Positions 53,987 to 60,360 of a stretch of DNA of 64,000 bases are shown here, piece after piece (positions within the stretch are counted from its first letter, which is position 1; each line of letters opens with the position of its first letter). The position numbers and the translations under genes were made by a program. The notes under the pieces were generated by a model that was given only the letters and a program-made list of their open reading frames with translations, was not told where the DNA came from and ran no database searches. Where the stretch lies: positions 1 through 64,000 of the forward strand of contig JAHDID010000020.1 of the NCBI GenBank assembly GCA_020630975.1. The letters run 5' to 3'. This DNA is from Verrucomicrobiota bacterium. Its GTDB lineage: Bacteria; Verrucomicrobiota; Verrucomicrobiia; Verrucomicrobiales; DEV007.

Positions 53987-55309
53987 TTAGTAGGTCTCTT
54001 TTTCGACTAGGTTACCGTCCTGATCCCATGTCAATTTCAAAAATGGCTTGCCTTCCTTGAATCTAGTTTCTGTCCGCTTCGAACCAGTCCGGAAGTATAC
54101 CTTGTCACTGATCTGCTTGCCGTTGATGTGTTGTTTTTCCCAACTTGGGCGGTCCGGACCGGACCAACCGATCGTCGTACCATGAAGTTTGCCGTTCAAG
54201 TAAGGTTCTTCTGACAATATTGAACCATCATTATTAAATAGGATTTTCTTACCATGCAATTTGCCGTTCAAAAAACGAGATTCCCATCCTAGTGATCCTT
54301 CGCATTTTGGTGAGACCCCGACACCTGTAAAAGGCTCCTCCTCGCCATTGGCGTAGGCAATACGTTCTTGGTTTGGCCCATCACGATAGGTGAGAGCTTT
54401 GTATGGATATTTTCGTTCAGGAGCAAAAAGCACATTGTCAAAGGTTAGGTCAGAATCAAGATTCTCGTTGCCAAGGTCTATTACCTCGCCAAGCTCATCT
54501 ACCTTTACACGCGGACGTATGTGAACGGGAAAGGTCTTCTCTTGAGGTGTGAGAACGGTAAAGGTCTTCTCTTTCGTCAGGTTGCCCGCTTCATCCCATT
54601 CCATTCGTAACGTTACACCACCGTATTGGTAGTCAATTTCTCTGATCTTCGAACCGTCCTTGCGGTATTCAATTATTTTGCCATTCCACTTTTTGAGCCT
54701 TGTGCCGTCTTTAAGTTTGTAGGGCATCATAGACCGGTATGCATTTTCAGAACCGGGTCTCCTCAGGCCGTCCTTCAGAACATTCATATCTTCCGGGGCA
54801 ATTGATTCGAGTCTTCCAATATTTAAAAAGGAGCCTTGAAATTTCGCAAATTCTTGAGCCACCCCGCTATCCATTGACCTGACATAGTTAAGGTTCAGAT
54901 CGCCAGTACACTTGGCCAGTTCGCGTGCCACATCTTTGGTAATCGAGGTCAGACCATCGAGACTAAGGCCTTTTTGGGAAATTTTTCTATCCGGCCAGTA
55001 GTACCAACCAGGTCGTTGCGTCGTCAGTTCATAAGCCACTTCCTTGGAAATCGAAGTCAGGCCATCAAGATAGATTCGCTGACCCTTATAATAAGACAAT
55101 TCCCTGGCAACATCTCGATCAATCGAGGTCAGCCACTTAAGGTCTAGTTGAGACTGCTTGCCATTGCTTGCATTCGCTTTCTCAACAAGTTCGGCAGCCT
55201 CCTGCACAGTCAATGTACCGGTTTTCTTTTGATTGCCAGGTAAATCCTCAGCCAGACAAATGCCATGGCAAATAATGAAGAGTGTATTGAATAGAAATCT
55301 CATAATCAT
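53987..55309 (-). CDS. exported leucine-rich-like and MORN/YwqK-repeat protein, copy B
   Basis: A 440-residue exported protein. The signal segment is about 1-20 (FLFNTLFIICHGICLA). Residues 60-185 are about 22-24-residue repeats of the pattern LDGLTSIxKxVARELxxxKGx, a leucine-rich-like repeat common in Planctomycetota and Verrucomicrobiota. From about 220 on are MORN_2/YwqK-like hairpins (KWNGKIIEYRKDGSKIREI, NGKLHGKKILFNNDGS, NGKLHGTTIGWSG, and the ending LTWDQDGNLVEKETY). YwqK-like proteins occur in some toxin-immunity and envelope settings; function here is unknown. It is a tandem paralogue of the gene 34 bp upstream, and both may be cotranscribed with the blaI/blaR1-like genes. Confidence 0.82.
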   Translation of the reverse strand: MIMRFLFNTLFIICHGICLAEDLPGNQKKTGTLTVQEAAELVEKANASNGKQSQLDLKWLTSIDRDVARELSYYKGQRIYLDGLTSISKEVAYELTTQRPGWYYWPDRKISQKGLSLDGLTSITKDVARELAKCTGDLNLNYVRSMDSGVAQEFAKFQGSFLNIGRLESIAPEDMNVLKDGLRRPGSENAYRSMMPYKLKDGTRLKKWNGKIIEYRKDGSKIREIDYQYGGVTLRMEWDEAGNLTKEKTFTVLTPQEKTFPVHIRPRVKVDELGEVIDLGNENLDSDLTFDNVLFAPERKYPYKALTYRDGPNQERIAYANGEEEPFTGVGVSPKCEGSLGWESRFLNGKLHGKKILFNNDGSILSEEPYLNGKLHGTTIGWSGPDRPSWEKQHINGKQISDKVYFRTGSKRTETRFKEGKPFLKLTWDQDGNLVEKETY

Positions 55310-55343
55310 CTTTTGTTCTAAATCAGTACAGTGGGATCGAATA

Positions 55344-56534
55344 TTAGAAAGTCTCTTTTCGGATGAGGTTGCCGTCTTTATCCCATATCAACCTCAACGA
55401 CTGTTTGCCATTTTGATAGCGCGTATCTTGCAAATCTGAATCTGGCTTATACAGCCAGCGGAGCATTTCACCGTGATTGAATTGTTCTACACCATAAATG
55501 GAACCATCTCTCCTAATGCTGAGGGAGTTACCATGCTTCTTGCCATTTAGAAAAGATGTTTCCGTAGACCGCGTTCCGTCTGAACGGTCTAAAAACGCTA
55601 TCCCTGAGAAGGGCTCGCCCCTGACATAAGCAATTCCCTCCTTGTCCCGGCCTAAATCATTTAATGGATATTCCCGTTCAGAAGTAATACGCCCCTTGTT
55701 AAAAAGAAGGACAACTTCAGAATATTCCGTTTTAAGATCTTTCACTTCGGTCGGTTTAACGCTCTGCTCATTTAGCTCTACACCCCGAGGTTTGTAAACG
55801 GGAAAGGTTTCCTCTTTAATAAGGTTGCCCGCTTCATCCCATTCCATTCTTGATATTAGTCCGCCGTATTTGTACTCCTTTTGTTTCTTTTTTGAACCGT
55901 CTTTGCGGAATTCAATTATTTTCCCATTCCACTTTTTCCAATCTTTGTCGCCATTAAGTTTGTAAGGCATCATCGCCCGGTAGTTGTAATCAAAAGTAGG
56001 CTTCTTGAGCGCTTGCTTCAGTAGAGCGATATCTTCCGGGGCGATTGATTCGAGGAATTGAATATTTAAAAAGGAGCCTTTGAATTTTGTAAATTCCCGA
56101 ACCACCTCGCTATTCATTGATTTGACATAGTTAAGGTTCAGGTCGCCTTTACGCTTAGCCAGTTCGTGAGCCACATCTTTGGTAATCGAAGTCAGACCAT
56201 TTAGACTAAGCCGGTGGCCCTTGAAAAGAGTCAGTTCGCGAGCCACTTCCTTGGAAATCGAAGTCAGGCCATCAAGTGAGATCGTGTAACCCTTGTATTG
56301 CGACAACTCCCTGGCAACATCTTGATCAATGGAGGTCAGACGGTTAAGGTCTAGCTCATTTGCCACATTCGGTTGCCTGGTTCCATTCGCTTTCTCAACA
56401 AGTTCGGCAGCCTCCTGCACAGTCAATGTACCGGTTTTCTTTTGATTGTCAGGTAAATCCTCAGCCAGACAAATGCCATGGCAAAGAACCAACAAGAGAA
56501 TAACTAATAATTTCATTAGAATATAGAGTTTCAT
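55344..56534 (-). CDS. exported leucine-rich-like and MORN/YwqK-repeat protein, copy A
   Basis: A 396-residue paralogue of the next gene. A hydrophobic signal segment (ILMKLLVILLLVLCHGICLA) is followed by the same EDLP..QKKTGTLTVQEAAELV leader, about four leucine-rich-like units (LTSIDQDVARELSQYKG and onward, about 62-180), and YwqK-like hairpins to the end (NGKQSLRLIWDKDGNLIRKE). It is shorter than copy B because it lacks part of the second hairpin set. The two copies share a nearly identical stretch of almost 90 bp at their 5' ends. It begins 87 bp after the BlaR1-like stop codon on the same strand, so it may be part of the same transcript. Confidence 0.82.
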   Translation of the reverse strand: MKLYILMKLLVILLLVLCHGICLAEDLPDNQKKTGTLTVQEAAELVEKANGTRQPNVANELDLNRLTSIDQDVARELSQYKGYTISLDGLTSISKEVARELTLFKGHRLSLNGLTSITKDVAHELAKRKGDLNLNYVKSMNSEVVREFTKFKGSFLNIQFLESIAPEDIALLKQALKKPTFDYNYRAMMPYKLNGDKDWKKWNGKIIEFRKDGSKKKQKEYKYGGLISRMEWDEAGNLIKEETFPVYKPRGVELNEQSVKPTEVKDLKTEYSEVVLLFNKGRITSEREYPLNDLGRDKEGIAYVRGEPFSGIAFLDRSDGTRSTETSFLNGKKHGNSLSIRRDGSIYGVEQFNHGEMLRWLYKPDSDLQDTRYQNGKQSLRLIWDKDGNLIRKETF

Positions 56535-56621: not shown

Positions 56622-58148
56622 TCAGCCCGCATCAAGCGCGCCATCAATGGGGAACAGGAAAGATGCACCATCGATCCCTTTGAGATGCCGGTCCGGACCA
56701 TGCATACTGCCATGGTGAAGATCCGGGCGATAGTTGTCATCGCCATAATCATCCCTGCCGCTCGCATGAGTGCCGACTCCGGTATCCAAGTCATAGTGGC
56801 CGGCAAGGTCCAGCACGATGTTTTTGTCTGTGCGAACGACGGTCTTTCCTGATTGCGAATCAAAGACAACGATTTCCTTGAGGTGCAGTTTGGGGCCAAT
56901 TCCCCAGGTGTAGAGCAGCTTCCCGTAGTTCCCTTCGTTAGTACGAAAATAGACCATGCCCAGCCTCTTGCGAGATTGGTGAAGTTCGAAGCGGTGTTTT
57001 TGTTTCGAATCGTAGTCAGCACGCGATAGCTGGTCTTTTACTAACACTTCATCATGCCCCTCGGCATCGAAGAGGCTCTTGATGTACGCTTCGCTGGCCT
57101 TACCGAAAGCATCATCCGCCAGGGTGAGTTCGTTCGCCTCAAGCGCCGGTGCGATAGCTCCCCATGAGATAAGTGCCGCCATGGCAATAAGCATCAGCGC
57201 CTTGAGGGGGGGCGGCACCTTCGGCTCAGAGATGATTAGGCGCAGCCGATTCCGTAGGGCCATCGCATGGGCTTGGATGCCAATGAAACCAAGATTCAGA
57301 CGGGTGGACGGGGCGCCCGTTTCTAATTTTAGCAGGGTGTGCCCATAAGCCAGTCGCTGACGCGTCGAAGATCCTCTCAACACTTCAGCGTCACAAGCCG
57401 CCTCCCGATCGGCACACGCCCGGTAAAATGCCAGCCAGAGCAGCGGATTGAACCAGTGGATGGCCAACAACAGGCAGAAGAGCGCATTCCACGTCAAATC
57501 CTTGCGTCGAAGGTGCGTGAGTTCATGTCGAAGCACCATTTCCTGCTCATGCCGCGACAAGTCATGCTCGAACGTTTCGTTGAGCATCAGCACCCCCCGC
57601 CAAAGGCCGCACACCGCTGGACTCTTGACCGCAGGTGAAACCAGAATCCTGGGCAATCGACGCAAACCGATCTCCTCAGCAATTTGCCCTATCTGCAGAA
57701 TGGTATCTTCGTCAGCCGATCGCGCGCTTCTTGTGACGCGACGGAACATCAGGGCGAGGGATAAGAGTGCAAACACCGAGAAAAGTCCCACGCCAACAAG
57801 CCATATAACGGGAAAGCTCAAGCCGCGGTAGAACGGCGTCGGAGGGGCCACCACCCCACCGGTTTGTGAGCCAGAGACCGCCATGCTTTGTGATTGATCG
57901 GGCGAAGCTAGGATTGCAGCGCCCCATTGACTGATGTCGGGCTGCAGCAGTGAGCCGTAGCTACCGAGGAAGACTTCGGCCTTAGGGAGCAGAAGAGCCA
58001 GTAGTATGGGCAACCACAAGGCATAACGCCAGTGAGCTGTCAAGTGCTTCCGCAGGGTGAACTGAATAACAAGGACGACCACGACCGGCAATGAAGCCTG
58101 CACGCTGGATGCTACAACCCAATCAAACACTGTTTCCACTACGGTCAT
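56622..58148 (-). CDS. BlaR1/MecR1-type M56 membrane protease with an unrecognised sensor domain
   Basis: A 508-residue integral membrane zinc protease of the BlaR1 family. Hydrophobic segments lie near 15-32, 42-56, 112-135, 218-240 and 315-333. The zinc motif HELTH is at 208-212, with Glu249 in REAACD as third ligand, and the M56 pattern SPAVCGLWRGVLMLNE at 176-191 is intact. In BlaR1 the C-terminus is a penicillin-binding sensor. Here residues 340-508 form a different domain with no serine-acylation SxxK motif, containing FELHQSRKRLGMVYFRTNEG, GNYGKLLYTWGI and GPDRHLKGIDGASFLFPI. The same domain is encoded as a free exported protein 35 bp upstream. It should cleave or inactivate the BlaI-like repressor on signal. 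Confidence 0.9.
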   Translation of the reverse strand: MTVVETVFDWVVASSVQASLPVVVVLVIQFTLRKHLTAHWRYALWLPILLALLLPKAEVFLGSYGSLLQPDISQWGAAILASPDQSQSMAVSGSQTGGVVAPPTPFYRGLSFPVIWLVGVGLFSVFALLSLALMFRRVTRSARSADEDTILQIGQIAEEIGLRRLPRILVSPAVKSPAVCGLWRGVLMLNETFEHDLSRHEQEMVLRHELTHLRRKDLTWNALFCLLLAIHWFNPLLWLAFYRACADREAACDAEVLRGSSTRQRLAYGHTLLKLETGAPSTRLNLGFIGIQAHAMALRNRLRLIISEPKVPPPLKALMLIAMAALISWGAIAPALEANELTLADDAFGKASEAYIKSLFDAEGHDEVLVKDQLSRADYDSKQKHRFELHQSRKRLGMVYFRTNEGNYGKLLYTWGIGPKLHLKEIVVFDSQSGKTVVRTDKNIVLDLAGHYDLDTGVGTHASGRDDYGDDNYRPDLHHGSMHGPDRHLKGIDGASFLFPIDGALDAG

Positions 58149-58183
58149 GATTCGTTCTCGTTATCAGGCTCAACCTCTCCTGA

Positions 58184-58720
58184 TCAGTCGGCATCCAGCA
58201 CACCATTCTCAATGGGGAACAGGAAAGACGCACCATCGATCCCTTTGAGATGCCGGTCAGGGCCATGAACACTACCACAGTGAATATCCGGGCGATAATC
58301 ATTGGGCCATGGTAATCCAGCGCCCAAATGAGTGCTGAATCCGCTATCCAGGTCCAGGTCAATTCCCCATGTGTAGAGCAACTTCCCGTAGTTCCCCTTA
58401 TTTGTGCGAAAAAAAACCATGCCCAGGCCCTTGCGCGATTCGTGAAGTTCGAAGCGATGTTCTTGCATCGAAATGAAGTCAGCACGCGACAGCTGGTCTT
58501 GTACTAACTTTTCATCGCGGTCCTCGCCATCGAAGAGCCCCTTGATGTAAGCTTCGCTGACCTTACCGAAATCATCATCCGCCAGGGCGATCTGATCGGG
58601 AGCTTTCACTTGCGGTAGTCCATATGCCTGTGCAGCGAGGAGAATGGCAGCGACTGGCAAAACTAGCAGCGAGGTCTTATTGCCGATTGAAAGTAGCTGT
58701 GTGGTTTTCGAGGTAATCAT
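58184..58720 (-). CDS. free exported copy of the BlaR1-like sensor domain
   Basis: A 178-residue protein from the ATG at 58720; an upstream start (58855) would run into the blaI-like gene and is rejected. One hydrophobic segment near 15-34 (LLVLPVAAILLAAQAYG) is a signal peptide or anchor. Residues 46-178 match residues 344-508 of the BlaR1-like protein, from LADDDFGKVSEAYIKGLFDG to GPDRHLKGIDGASFLFPI. A deletion of about 33 residues follows LLYTWGI, removing the part around FDSQSGKTVVRTDKN. The 3' ends of the two genes are almost identical over about 50 bp. It could compete for, deliver or present the signal. It lies 22 bp after the repressor gene and 35 bp before the protease gene. No family name is known to me. 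Confidence 0.82.
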   Translation of the reverse strand: MITSKTTQLLSIGNKTSLLVLPVAAILLAAQAYGLPQVKAPDQIALADDDFGKVSEAYIKGLFDGEDRDEKLVQDQLSRADFISMQEHRFELHESRKGLGMVFFRTNKGNYGKLLYTWGIDLDLDSGFSTHLGAGLPWPNDYRPDIHCGSVHGPDRHLKGIDGASFLFPIENGVLDAD

Positions 58721-58742
58721 TATTTGGTTTGTTGTTGATTGA

Positions 58743-59156
58743 TTAAATTTTGTCGTTGTTTTGTTCGAGGCCAGCTGAGTCGCTCTCAACTGACTCATCC
58801 AACAAGCGCTTGAGCTCCTCGACATCTTGGGCTGAGAGATTGGAATGCTTGGCAAAGTGGACCAACAGTGGCTTGGCAGCGCCCCCGAAAAGGCGCTCCA
58901 TGAAAGATTCGCCTTCGGCTAGAATGCAGGCTTCACGTGACACCTTGGGTAGAAAGATTCGAACGCCCGACGGATTCGCTTTCGCTGTCAGAGCTCCTTT
59001 TTTCACCAGGCGTGTGAGAAGAGTGCGGACTGTATTGTCCGCCCAATTCTTTTTTGAGCGGAGCGCCTGAGTCACTTCTTGCGATGTTTGCGGTGCTGAA
59101 TCCCACAGCACTTCCATCACGAGCCACTCAGATTCGGAGATGTTGGTTTTGCTCAT
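58743..59156 (-). CDS. BlaI/MecI/CopY family transcriptional repressor
   Basis: A 137-residue winged-helix repressor from the ATG at 59156; an upstream start (59243) would include both operators. Features: SESEWLVMEVLWDSAPQTSQEV, then RSKKNWADNTVRTLLTRLVKKGAL (recognition helix and wing), then KANPSGVRIFLPKVSREACI, and a C-terminal dimerisation part with ESFMERLFGG and FAKHSNLSAQDVEELKRLLD. These are all typical of BlaI. It should dimerise on palindromic TACA-N-TGTA sites; two such sites lie just upstream, so it probably represses its own operon. Release should come through the M56 protease encoded two genes downstream. Confidence 0.95.
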   Translation of the reverse strand: MSKTNISESEWLVMEVLWDSAPQTSQEVTQALRSKKNWADNTVRTLLTRLVKKGALTAKANPSGVRIFLPKVSREACILAEGESFMERLFGGAAKPLLVHFAKHSNLSAQDVEELKRLLDESVESDSAGLEQNNDKI

Positions 59157-59166
59157 GGCGGGAACA

Positions 59167-59204
59167 CTACAGTTGTAGGGAGGGAGGTCAACTACAATTG
59201 TAGT
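59167..59204 (-). promoter_or_regulatory. paired BlaI-type operators and promoter of the bla-like operon
   Basis: Two palindromes lie in the promoter region: CTACAGTTGTAG (59167-59178, one mismatch) and ACTACAATTGTAGT (59191-59204, perfect), with centres 25 bp apart. Both have the TACA/TGTA half-sites used by BlaI and MecI. On the minus strand the sequence TTGACC, 16 bp, TAGTGT between and over them is a candidate -35/-10 pair, so bound repressor would block the promoter. Confidence 0.82.
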
Positions 59205-59421: not shown

Positions 59422-60360
59422 ATGGTCCAGTCATCCGATCTTCACATCACGAGAGAGTCAGGCGACCTCCACAAAATCGAGAAAGCTCGAATCAGATTTG
59501 TACGATTGTCCAGGTTTGGCAGCCCTTTAGTGAAGTTCTTGTGTGTGGTGTGCGTTCTAACCTCTTTCTTGCCTTTCGTTGGCTTCATCACCCTACTGGC
59601 GGCTGTTGTTTTAGTGCTTGTGCAGATCTTTGCGATCTCTCTGCCACAGCGAAAATTTAGAAAAAGTTTCAAAGCTGCTATGGGCGAGAAAATCGTCAGC
59701 CAAGCGAGTCCGACACTGACCTACTACCCTGAGAAAGGATTCGAGGAGAACTACTTCTATCAAGCTAACCTATTCAAAAACAGCTCCACCTGGAGTTTTC
59801 GATCCGAAGACCTCGTCGCCGGCTCTCACGGAGAGACACTCCTCAAATTTGCCGAGGTCGATCTGATAAATACCAGTGAAAACGATTCGATCATAGGGTC
59901 TCCAGAAGACATTTCCATGATCTTCTTTGTGGCAGACTTTCACAAACACTTCAAAGGCGAAACCTATGTGCTACCAAAGAAGTCGTTCGGAAAGAAAATG
60001 AACCCATTCAAAGTAGAGATCAACCCAGGTCTACCAAAGGTGAAGCTTGAGAACACCGAGTTTCACCAGCAATTCGAAGTCCAGAGCACTGACGAAATTG
60101 AAGCGCGCTACATTCTGTCGCTATCGATGCTGGAGAGGATCTCTACGCTCAATCACCAGCATGGAGGCGGAATGCGCCTCGCTTTTAAAGACACCTGCAT
60201 ATGGATAGCTCTCCCTCTACAGGGCGAATTCTTTGAGCCTAATGAAAAAGTGAGCGTTCACGACGAGCGCCAAGGAGACAGTATGGTCGAGGAGATTCGG
60301 ACCTATCTGGCACTGGTGGATGAACTAAATCTGAACACTCGGATCTGGAGCAAAGCTTAG
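59422..60360 (+). CDS. DUF3137 family membrane protein
   Basis: A 312-residue protein. Two close hydrophobic segments (about 36-72, VKFLCVVCVLTSFLPFVGFI and ITLLAAVVLVLVQIFAI) are followed by a cytoplasmic-type domain. The DUF3137 pattern is seen: IFFVADFHKHFKGETYVLP, LENTEFHQQFEVQSTDEIEA, RYILSLSMLERI, then FKDTCIWIALPLQGEFFEP. The family is widespread, often next to LemA, and unexplained. No LemA gene is seen here. The stop codon overlaps the stop of the converging next gene by 4 bp. Confidence 0.9.
   Translation: MVQSSDLHITRESGDLHKIEKARIRFVRLSRFGSPLVKFLCVVCVLTSFLPFVGFITLLAAVVLVLVQIFAISLPQRKFRKSFKAAMGEKIVSQASPTLTYYPEKGFEENYFYQANLFKNSSTWSFRSEDLVAGSHGETLLKFAEVDLINTSENDSIIGSPEDISMIFFVADFHKHFKGETYVLPKKSFGKKMNPFKVEINPGLPKVKLENTEFHQQFEVQSTDEIEARYILSLSMLERISTLNHQHGGGMRLAFKDTCIWIALPLQGEFFEPNEKVSVHDERQGDSMVEEIRTYLALVDELNLNTRIWSKA

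Follow-up and report, generated by a model that had tools for sequence, protein, structure and literature searches.

The stretch analyzed here (the window) comprises 64,000 nucleotides, positions 1 to 64,000 of contig JAHDID010000020.1 of a Verrucomicrobiota bacterium (GCA_020630975.1). Five closely spaced genes run on its minus strand from position 59156 to 53987: a blaI repressor gene, a gene for the free copy of a putative sensor domain, a gene for an M56 (BlaR1-type) membrane zinc protease whose C-terminal part is the tethered form of the same domain, and two tandem genes for LTSI-repeat, MORN-like proteins. The intergenic gaps are 22, 35, 87 and 34 bases in this order. A prediction made earlier from the sequence (the original prediction) had described the first three genes as a BlaI/BlaR1-like circuit with a new sensor domain that is also made as a free exported protein.

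The repressor gene comes first in the row, as had been claimed, and encodes a BlaI protein of 137 amino acids (59156-58743). It matches the Pfam family Penicillinase_R (PF03965) with 103.8 bits (E 9.4e-30), above the curated cut-off of 22.6 bits, and aligns to the BlaI structure 1sd4 with an E-value of 1.6e-17. In this alignment His100-Phe101 of the window protein corresponds to the cleavage site Asn101-Phe102 of 1sd4, so that the P1′ Phe is kept and His replaces Asn at P1. According to the consulted part of PMC9834060, this P1′ Phe hardly ever varies. An assignment to the copper repressors CopY/TcrY (TIGR02698) was rejected, the score of 80.4 bits being below the cut-off of 121.95.

The protease of 508 amino acids (56622-58148, minus strand) matches Pfam Peptidase_M56 (PF05569) over residues 11-305 with 188.9 bits (cut-off 31, E 1.6e-55). 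A motif scan bore out that it is intact: the zinc motif HExxH, here HELTH, lies at residues 208-212 (57513-57527), and Glu249 (57402-57404), the third zinc ligand by homology, is the Glu of an ExxCD motif. The same motifs occur in the two relatives described below. Hydrophobic segments were found at about residues 7-32, 42-62, 108-138, 222-241 and 314-338, with the orientation taken from homology only. The NCBIfam model of the BlaR1 beta-lactam sensor (NF000326) gave 150.6 bits against a cut-off of 400 and matched only residues 12-306. Thus, protease and repressor belong to the M56 and BlaI families by profile, and the definition of a BlaR1 beta-lactam sensor does not apply to this protein.

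The tethered domain comprises residues 339-508 of the protease (56625-57134, minus strand) and is placed outside the membrane by homology. The last approximately 170 residues have no match in Pfam or NCBIfam at E-values up to 10, and nothing above noise was obtained from PHROGs (E up to 1) or PADLOC (E up to 0.1). This profile search, proposed with the original prediction, therefore returned no known family. The statement that the domain is not a penicillin-binding one also held, as no transpeptidase or beta-lactamase profile of Pfam or NCBIfam was matched at E-values up to 10. The motif SxxK is present at five columns of the alignment, at none of them in more than three of the six copies. For one of the related free copies, that of G428 (see below), weak matches were listed to VakA (PADLOC, E 0.013), DUF4179 (Pfam, E 0.1), XdhA (NCBIfam, E 0.11) and PHROG 21914 (E 0.22). 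Matches to PDB sequences were taken as chance (6dt7, E 0.063, protease residues 364-449; 3fm2, E 0.23; 2i00, E 0.33).

Two AlphaFold models of the domain, built from four and three close sequences, reached a mean pLDDT (predicted local distance difference test) of 41 and 48. In the second model a beta-rich core is found at about residues 46-108, with block means between 47 and 71. A Foldseek search with this low-confidence model resulted in no match at an E-value of 0.001 or better. The best fold comparison was 4fr9, a BLIP-like structure (Z 4.6, root-mean-square deviation 4.4, 104 aligned residues), which unrelated folds follow closely; no fold was taken from it. Among the matches shown for this poor model there is no penicillin-binding or lactamase fold, which excludes nothing. 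That the tethered domain acts as a sensor is suggested by its place in the protein.

The gene between blaI and the protease gene (58184-58720, minus strand) starts with ATG and encodes the free copy of 178 amino acids with its own signal-like segment. It matches the protease C-terminus in two pieces with E-values of 1.1e-36 and 3.6e-16, between which a block of 33 residues is absent (at about 58358-58361), in agreement with the original description of this gene. The identity between the free and the tethered domain is 72.3% over the shared columns. On the DNA level the likeness extends from about residue 44 of the free protein and residue 341 of the protease to the stop codon. Since it starts just past the signal or membrane segment, the signal segment of the free copy and the protease's last membrane helix probably have different origins, and what both forms have in common is probably the domain itself.

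For the identification of relatives, several partly overlapping genome sets were searched for the domain, most of them drawn as samples from larger groups. The scan of genome contigs resulted in one relative among 80 candidate stretches, the locus L036 on contig CALDGA010000172.1. As in the window, blaI is followed there by the free copy, the M56 gene and an LTSI-repeat gene, of which the beginning is present. Its free copy is full-length with 215 amino acids. The contig is titled as a Flavobacteriales metagenome-assembled genome, and its blaI differs from the window blaI by a dS (synonymous substitutions per site) of 0.35. Probably the contig was misbinned and its source is near the window organism, or the operon moved. 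In the sets of 141 relatives, 386 genomes from the order and 384 from the class, matches to the domain came from the window's own genome alone.

In the phylum set of 387 genomes, the own genome was joined by G428, which belongs to another class of the same phylum. In the sets of 6 genomes from the family of G428 and 197 from its class, only G428 gave a match that was accepted. The gene order in G428 is free copy (215 amino acids), blaI, M56 gene with the domain, and the families of neighbouring genes include PSD/PSCyt, which points to the Planctomycetes-Verrucomicrobia group and probably to Verrucomicrobiota. No relative was found among the viral contigs and plasmids searched. The E-values of genome matches apply to one genome, and several chance matches are expected at this search size. 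Three were regarded as such: that of G356 (E 0.005), an open reading frame of 386 amino acids in L061 (2859-4019) which by eye is unlike the domain family apart from a short GSLYGDIR.. stretch in common; that of G768 (E 0.004), which by eye runs into the start of an ABC-permease-like frame of L068; and that of G971 (E 0.006), a frame of 76 amino acids with one stop, judged from the first 200 bases of the locus. With matches limited to the own genome, L036 and G428, the domain is rare and patchy in the sets searched.

In all three of these genomes both forms of the domain occur together and the free reading frame is open without stops. The concern that the free copy is a stray duplicate was thus removed, as it is present in both other genomes with the tethered domain. 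The internal deletion did not hold up as a feature of the design, because the free copies of L036 and G428 are full-length.

The association was further compared with 28 other M56 loci, namely 25 from 16 other genomes of the genus (E 1e-20 or better), the loci C4 and C10 of the own genome and a second pair of G428. A locus was testable if the C-terminus of its M56 protein was longer than 40 amino acids, and this C-terminus was compared with the other open reading frames of the locus; several loci are cut by contig ends. L086 and L092, with 40 amino acids or less, were not compared. A free copy of the C-terminus was found nearby in none of the 26 testable loci with other C-termini, including G013:C118, where the M56 match contains a stop and the contig ends near the gene. 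The single match (L081, E 9e-4) was an open reading frame antisense to the same low-complexity M56 gene and was discarded. Since none of the 26 other loci has one, free copies go with the new domain and not with M56 genes generally. The M56 C-termini of the genus (L069-L092) are by eye very varied and include secretin-like repeats, long charged repeat linkers, EF-hand-like ends and carboxypeptidase-regulatory-like repeats. Because of this variety, the module probably serves many envelope signals.

Two dyads of the type TACAnnTGTA are located directly before blaI; neither these nor the two downstream genes on the same strand had been mentioned in the original prediction. The distal dyad CTACAATTGTAG (59192-59203) and the proximal dyad next to the blaI start (59167-59178) are both exact and lie 25 bp apart. 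In L036 the distal dyad is identical and the proximal one differs at one of the two central bases, while the DNA farther upstream has diverged. In G428 three exact CTACAnnTGTAG dyads with a distance of 25-26 bp are found upstream of the free gene, and two more before blaI. The G428 locus has five exact dyads compared to a mean of 0.24 in shuffled sequences with one mismatch allowed. With one mismatch allowed, 28 of 100 shuffles of the window reached two dyad matches.

A relaxed paired pattern (TACAnnTGTA-N10-20-TACAnnTGTA) was then scanned genome-wide. It was detected at three places in the 7.1 Mb of the own genome (none in the reversed control), which are the window blaI and the blaI-M56 pairs of C4 and C10. 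In G428 it was found in three promoter regions (the free gene, the blaI beside it and a further blaI-M56 pair on C19) and in G141, the genome of L036, once, before the blaI of the L036 locus. None was found in G020 and G010, though both carry M56 genes. The weight of the dyads comes from their paired spacing, place and conservation, and binding by BlaI is predicted. Multiple inverted-repeat operators agree with the consulted parts of two descriptions: the small BlaI regulons of C. thermocellum, in which two inverted-repeat pairs are needed (PMC8457756), and the bla region of B. licheniformis with its three operators (PMC3305447). Scans for sigma-70 promoters and terminators gave no more matches than in shuffled sequences.

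Two further blaI-M56 pairs with paired dyads were characterized. At C4 (L049:3290-5437, minus strand) the M56 C-terminus carries Amidase_3 (1.2e-45) and Peptidase_M23 (2e-18), so that in this paralogous protein two peptidoglycan hydrolase domains are joined to a BlaR1-type protease; the same paired dyads lie upstream. The second pair of G428 (L100:4269-6217) has its own paired dyads, an M56 protein of 505 amino acids with another C-terminus and no free copy nearby.

The identity between the free and the tethered form within one genome is 91.5% in L036, 77.0% in G428 and 72.3% in the window. The two G428 copies group together (1000 of 1000 bootstraps) and share 41-45% identity with the other lineage. 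For the L036 pair, a dN (nonsynonymous substitutions per site) of 0.042 and a dS of 0.22 were determined. The free copies of the window and L036 are 69.5% identical, and against its neighbours the window free copy has a dN/dS of about 0.4 (0.180/0.42 and 0.189/0.51). The loss of 33 residues is an event of the window lineage, and the window copy may be under relaxed constraint. Of the residues private to this copy, 8 of 24 are common to G428, compared to 7 of 24 for the other three copies.

From these patterns, either the domain would have been duplicated at least twice, or gene conversion would homogenise the pair. Repeated duplication is suited by the differing gene order of G428, and gene conversion is hinted at by three columns common to the free copies of the window and G428. 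No other columns separate these two free copies from the three tethered ones, and with so few of them a single old duplication and two independent duplications look alike. The site patterns of the four close copies (6 for conversion, 5 for orthology and 3 for neither) are likewise not decisive.

The two genes following the protease gene encode LTSI-repeat proteins. The first (55344-56534, minus strand; 396 amino acids) has a signal-like start and a weak MORN-like match; it begins 87 bp after the M56 gene and is perhaps part of the same operon. The second (53987-55309, minus strand; 440 amino acids) follows after 34 bp and is a tandem paralogue with a MORN_2-like match below the Pfam cut-off. 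Both (53987-56534) may belong to the regulon. By eye, a gene homologous to the first begins after the M56 gene in L036 too, and no MORN-like gene is seen among the listed open reading frames after the G428 M56 gene. For the free protein, the two genes downstream and the divergent gene at 59422, the Pfam search gave no beta-lactamase and no low-affinity penicillin-binding protein family.

Taken together, the locus is read here as a BlaI/BlaR1-like switch with an outer domain of a new family, the dedicated output of which is a free exported copy of that domain. We give this reading a probability of slightly less than one half (about 0.48). By occupying two or three TACAnnTGTA dyads in tandem, BlaI dimers would repress the operon, as expected from the family and the operators. 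The C-terminal domain of the protease, for which the topology predicts a place outside the cytoplasmic membrane, would meet an envelope ligand or stress signal, upon which the activated zinc protease would cut BlaI at His100-Phe101. Derepression would raise BlaI, the M56 protein and the free domain, including the product of the separate free gene in G428. The free domain would then bind or act on the same ligand outside the membrane, neutralise it and so turn the switch off again, the part played by beta-lactamase in bla. It looks as if the free domain would fill the slot of beta-lactamase, which removes the inducer in bla systems. Concerted evolution or repeated duplication, to which the sequence pattern partly points, could keep sensor and output matched.

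In the window and G428 genomes every place of this exact paired pattern lies upstream of a blaI-M56 pair with the free gene of G428 as the sole exception, and the free gene therefore looks like a dedicated output. A more far-reaching version, less likely than not, is that sensor and response are one protein family by design: the tethered copy would read an envelope ligand, cleavage of the repressor would fill the periplasm with the free form, by which this ligand would be taken up or destroyed, and the genes would be kept matched by conversion or renewed duplication.

Several observations weigh against a dedicated output. In the window and L036 the free gene lies under the common blaI promoter, and its place alone is no proof of an output role; the MORN-like genes could be the real output. 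The pattern comes from two separate lineages only. A hydrophobic N-terminal segment was found in the free copies of the window and L036, whereas the G428 free protein has no segment above the hydropathy threshold, its export signal being read by eye. The own genome shows no enrichment of single dyads (8 compared to 20 in the reversed control). Furthermore, the window pair is not the closest one, as the window tethered domain is 87-88% identical to both L036 copies and 72% to its own free copy. Among the four close copies the latter has diverged most, with 54 private nucleotides compared to 10-13, and as it is without 33 conserved residues it may be unable to bind the ligand of the tethered form.

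The alternative that survives best is that the free copy modulates the receptor. It would pair with the tethered domain in a hetero-oligomer or by dimer exchange, or compete for a partner, and so set the threshold or turn the receptor off. The high identity within two of the three genomes (L036 and G428) suits direct pairing, and a physiological parallel is given by BlaR1, which according to the consulted part of PMC9834060 is a domain-swapped dimer with a sensor domain shed by signal peptidase. Both structure models are poor, though, and with three dyads before the free gene and two before blaI, the arrangement in G428 fits an output better than a stoichiometric partner. We consider this alternative unlikely. 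The circuit of the original prediction, with its non-penicillin-binding domain and conserved free copy, is thus retained. Its suggestions of dimer exchange or decoy control are unlikely options, and the G428 dyads point first to an induced output.

Rather improbable is the explanation that the free copy merely arose through local duplication, has no selected role and decays in the window lineage, the real outputs being the LTSI/MORN-like proteins. The lost residues and raised divergence of the window copy would be accounted for, as would the two MORN-like genes on the same strand, one of which begins after the M56 gene in L036. Against this explanation speak the open frame in all three genomes, the free gene's own dyads in G428, the absence of free copies beside 26 other M56 genes, the apparent lack of a MORN-like gene after the G428 M56 gene and the private residues of the window copy that are common to G428. 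The least probable possibility, a coreceptor that would capture the ligand and pass it to the tethered domain in the manner of a periplasmic binding protein, is suggested by the signal-like N-terminus in the window and L036 and by the adjoining sensor gene in three of three genomes, but basal expression would suffice for it, yet the G428 free gene has its own upstream region with three dyads.

The circuit supplies a soluble version of the domain, which makes ligand finding practical, as ligands can be fished for with the purified free protein. Should the more far-reaching version be true, the ligand would be a signal of a type new to the BlaR1 family. In the open-licence PMC literature, no BlaR-type system was found in which a second gene encodes a copy of the sensor.

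The closest known counterpart is the BlaI/BlaR1/BlaZ (BlaP) system of S. aureus and B. licheniformis, with which the locus shares a BlaI-family repressor, an M56 protease with HExxH...E, adjoining genes and several dyad operators. A further parallel is that the sensor domain of BlaR1 is related in fold to class D beta-lactamase, an enzyme class that destroys the ligand, as described in the consulted parts of PMC9834060 and PMC7593790. In contrast to that system, the window sensor domain matches no penicillin-binding profile, the candidate output is a copy of the sensor itself, the gene order differs and no beta-lactamase was found among the operon genes.

The BlaI regulons of C. thermocellum (PMC8457756, consulted part) are similarly small and self-contained, with two ordered inverted-repeat pairs and an operon of BlaI, BlaR1 and hypothetical proteins as the suspected output. 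The operator sequence differs, and a copy of the sensor domain is not described in that part of the source. A BlaR homologue of M. tuberculosis, according to the consulted part of PMC9834060, is also an M56-type protease without a beta-lactam sensor; it lacks an equivalent domain rather than having a new one and a free copy. The same part of that source describes the shedding of the BlaR1 sensor by the signal peptidase SpsB, because of which a free sensor domain is not alien to the BlaR1 family. There the free extracytoplasmic form is cut from the receptor, whereas here it has a separate gene. BlaR1-type proteases are best known as beta-lactam receptors, and at this locus the same module seems to read another signal through a new domain.

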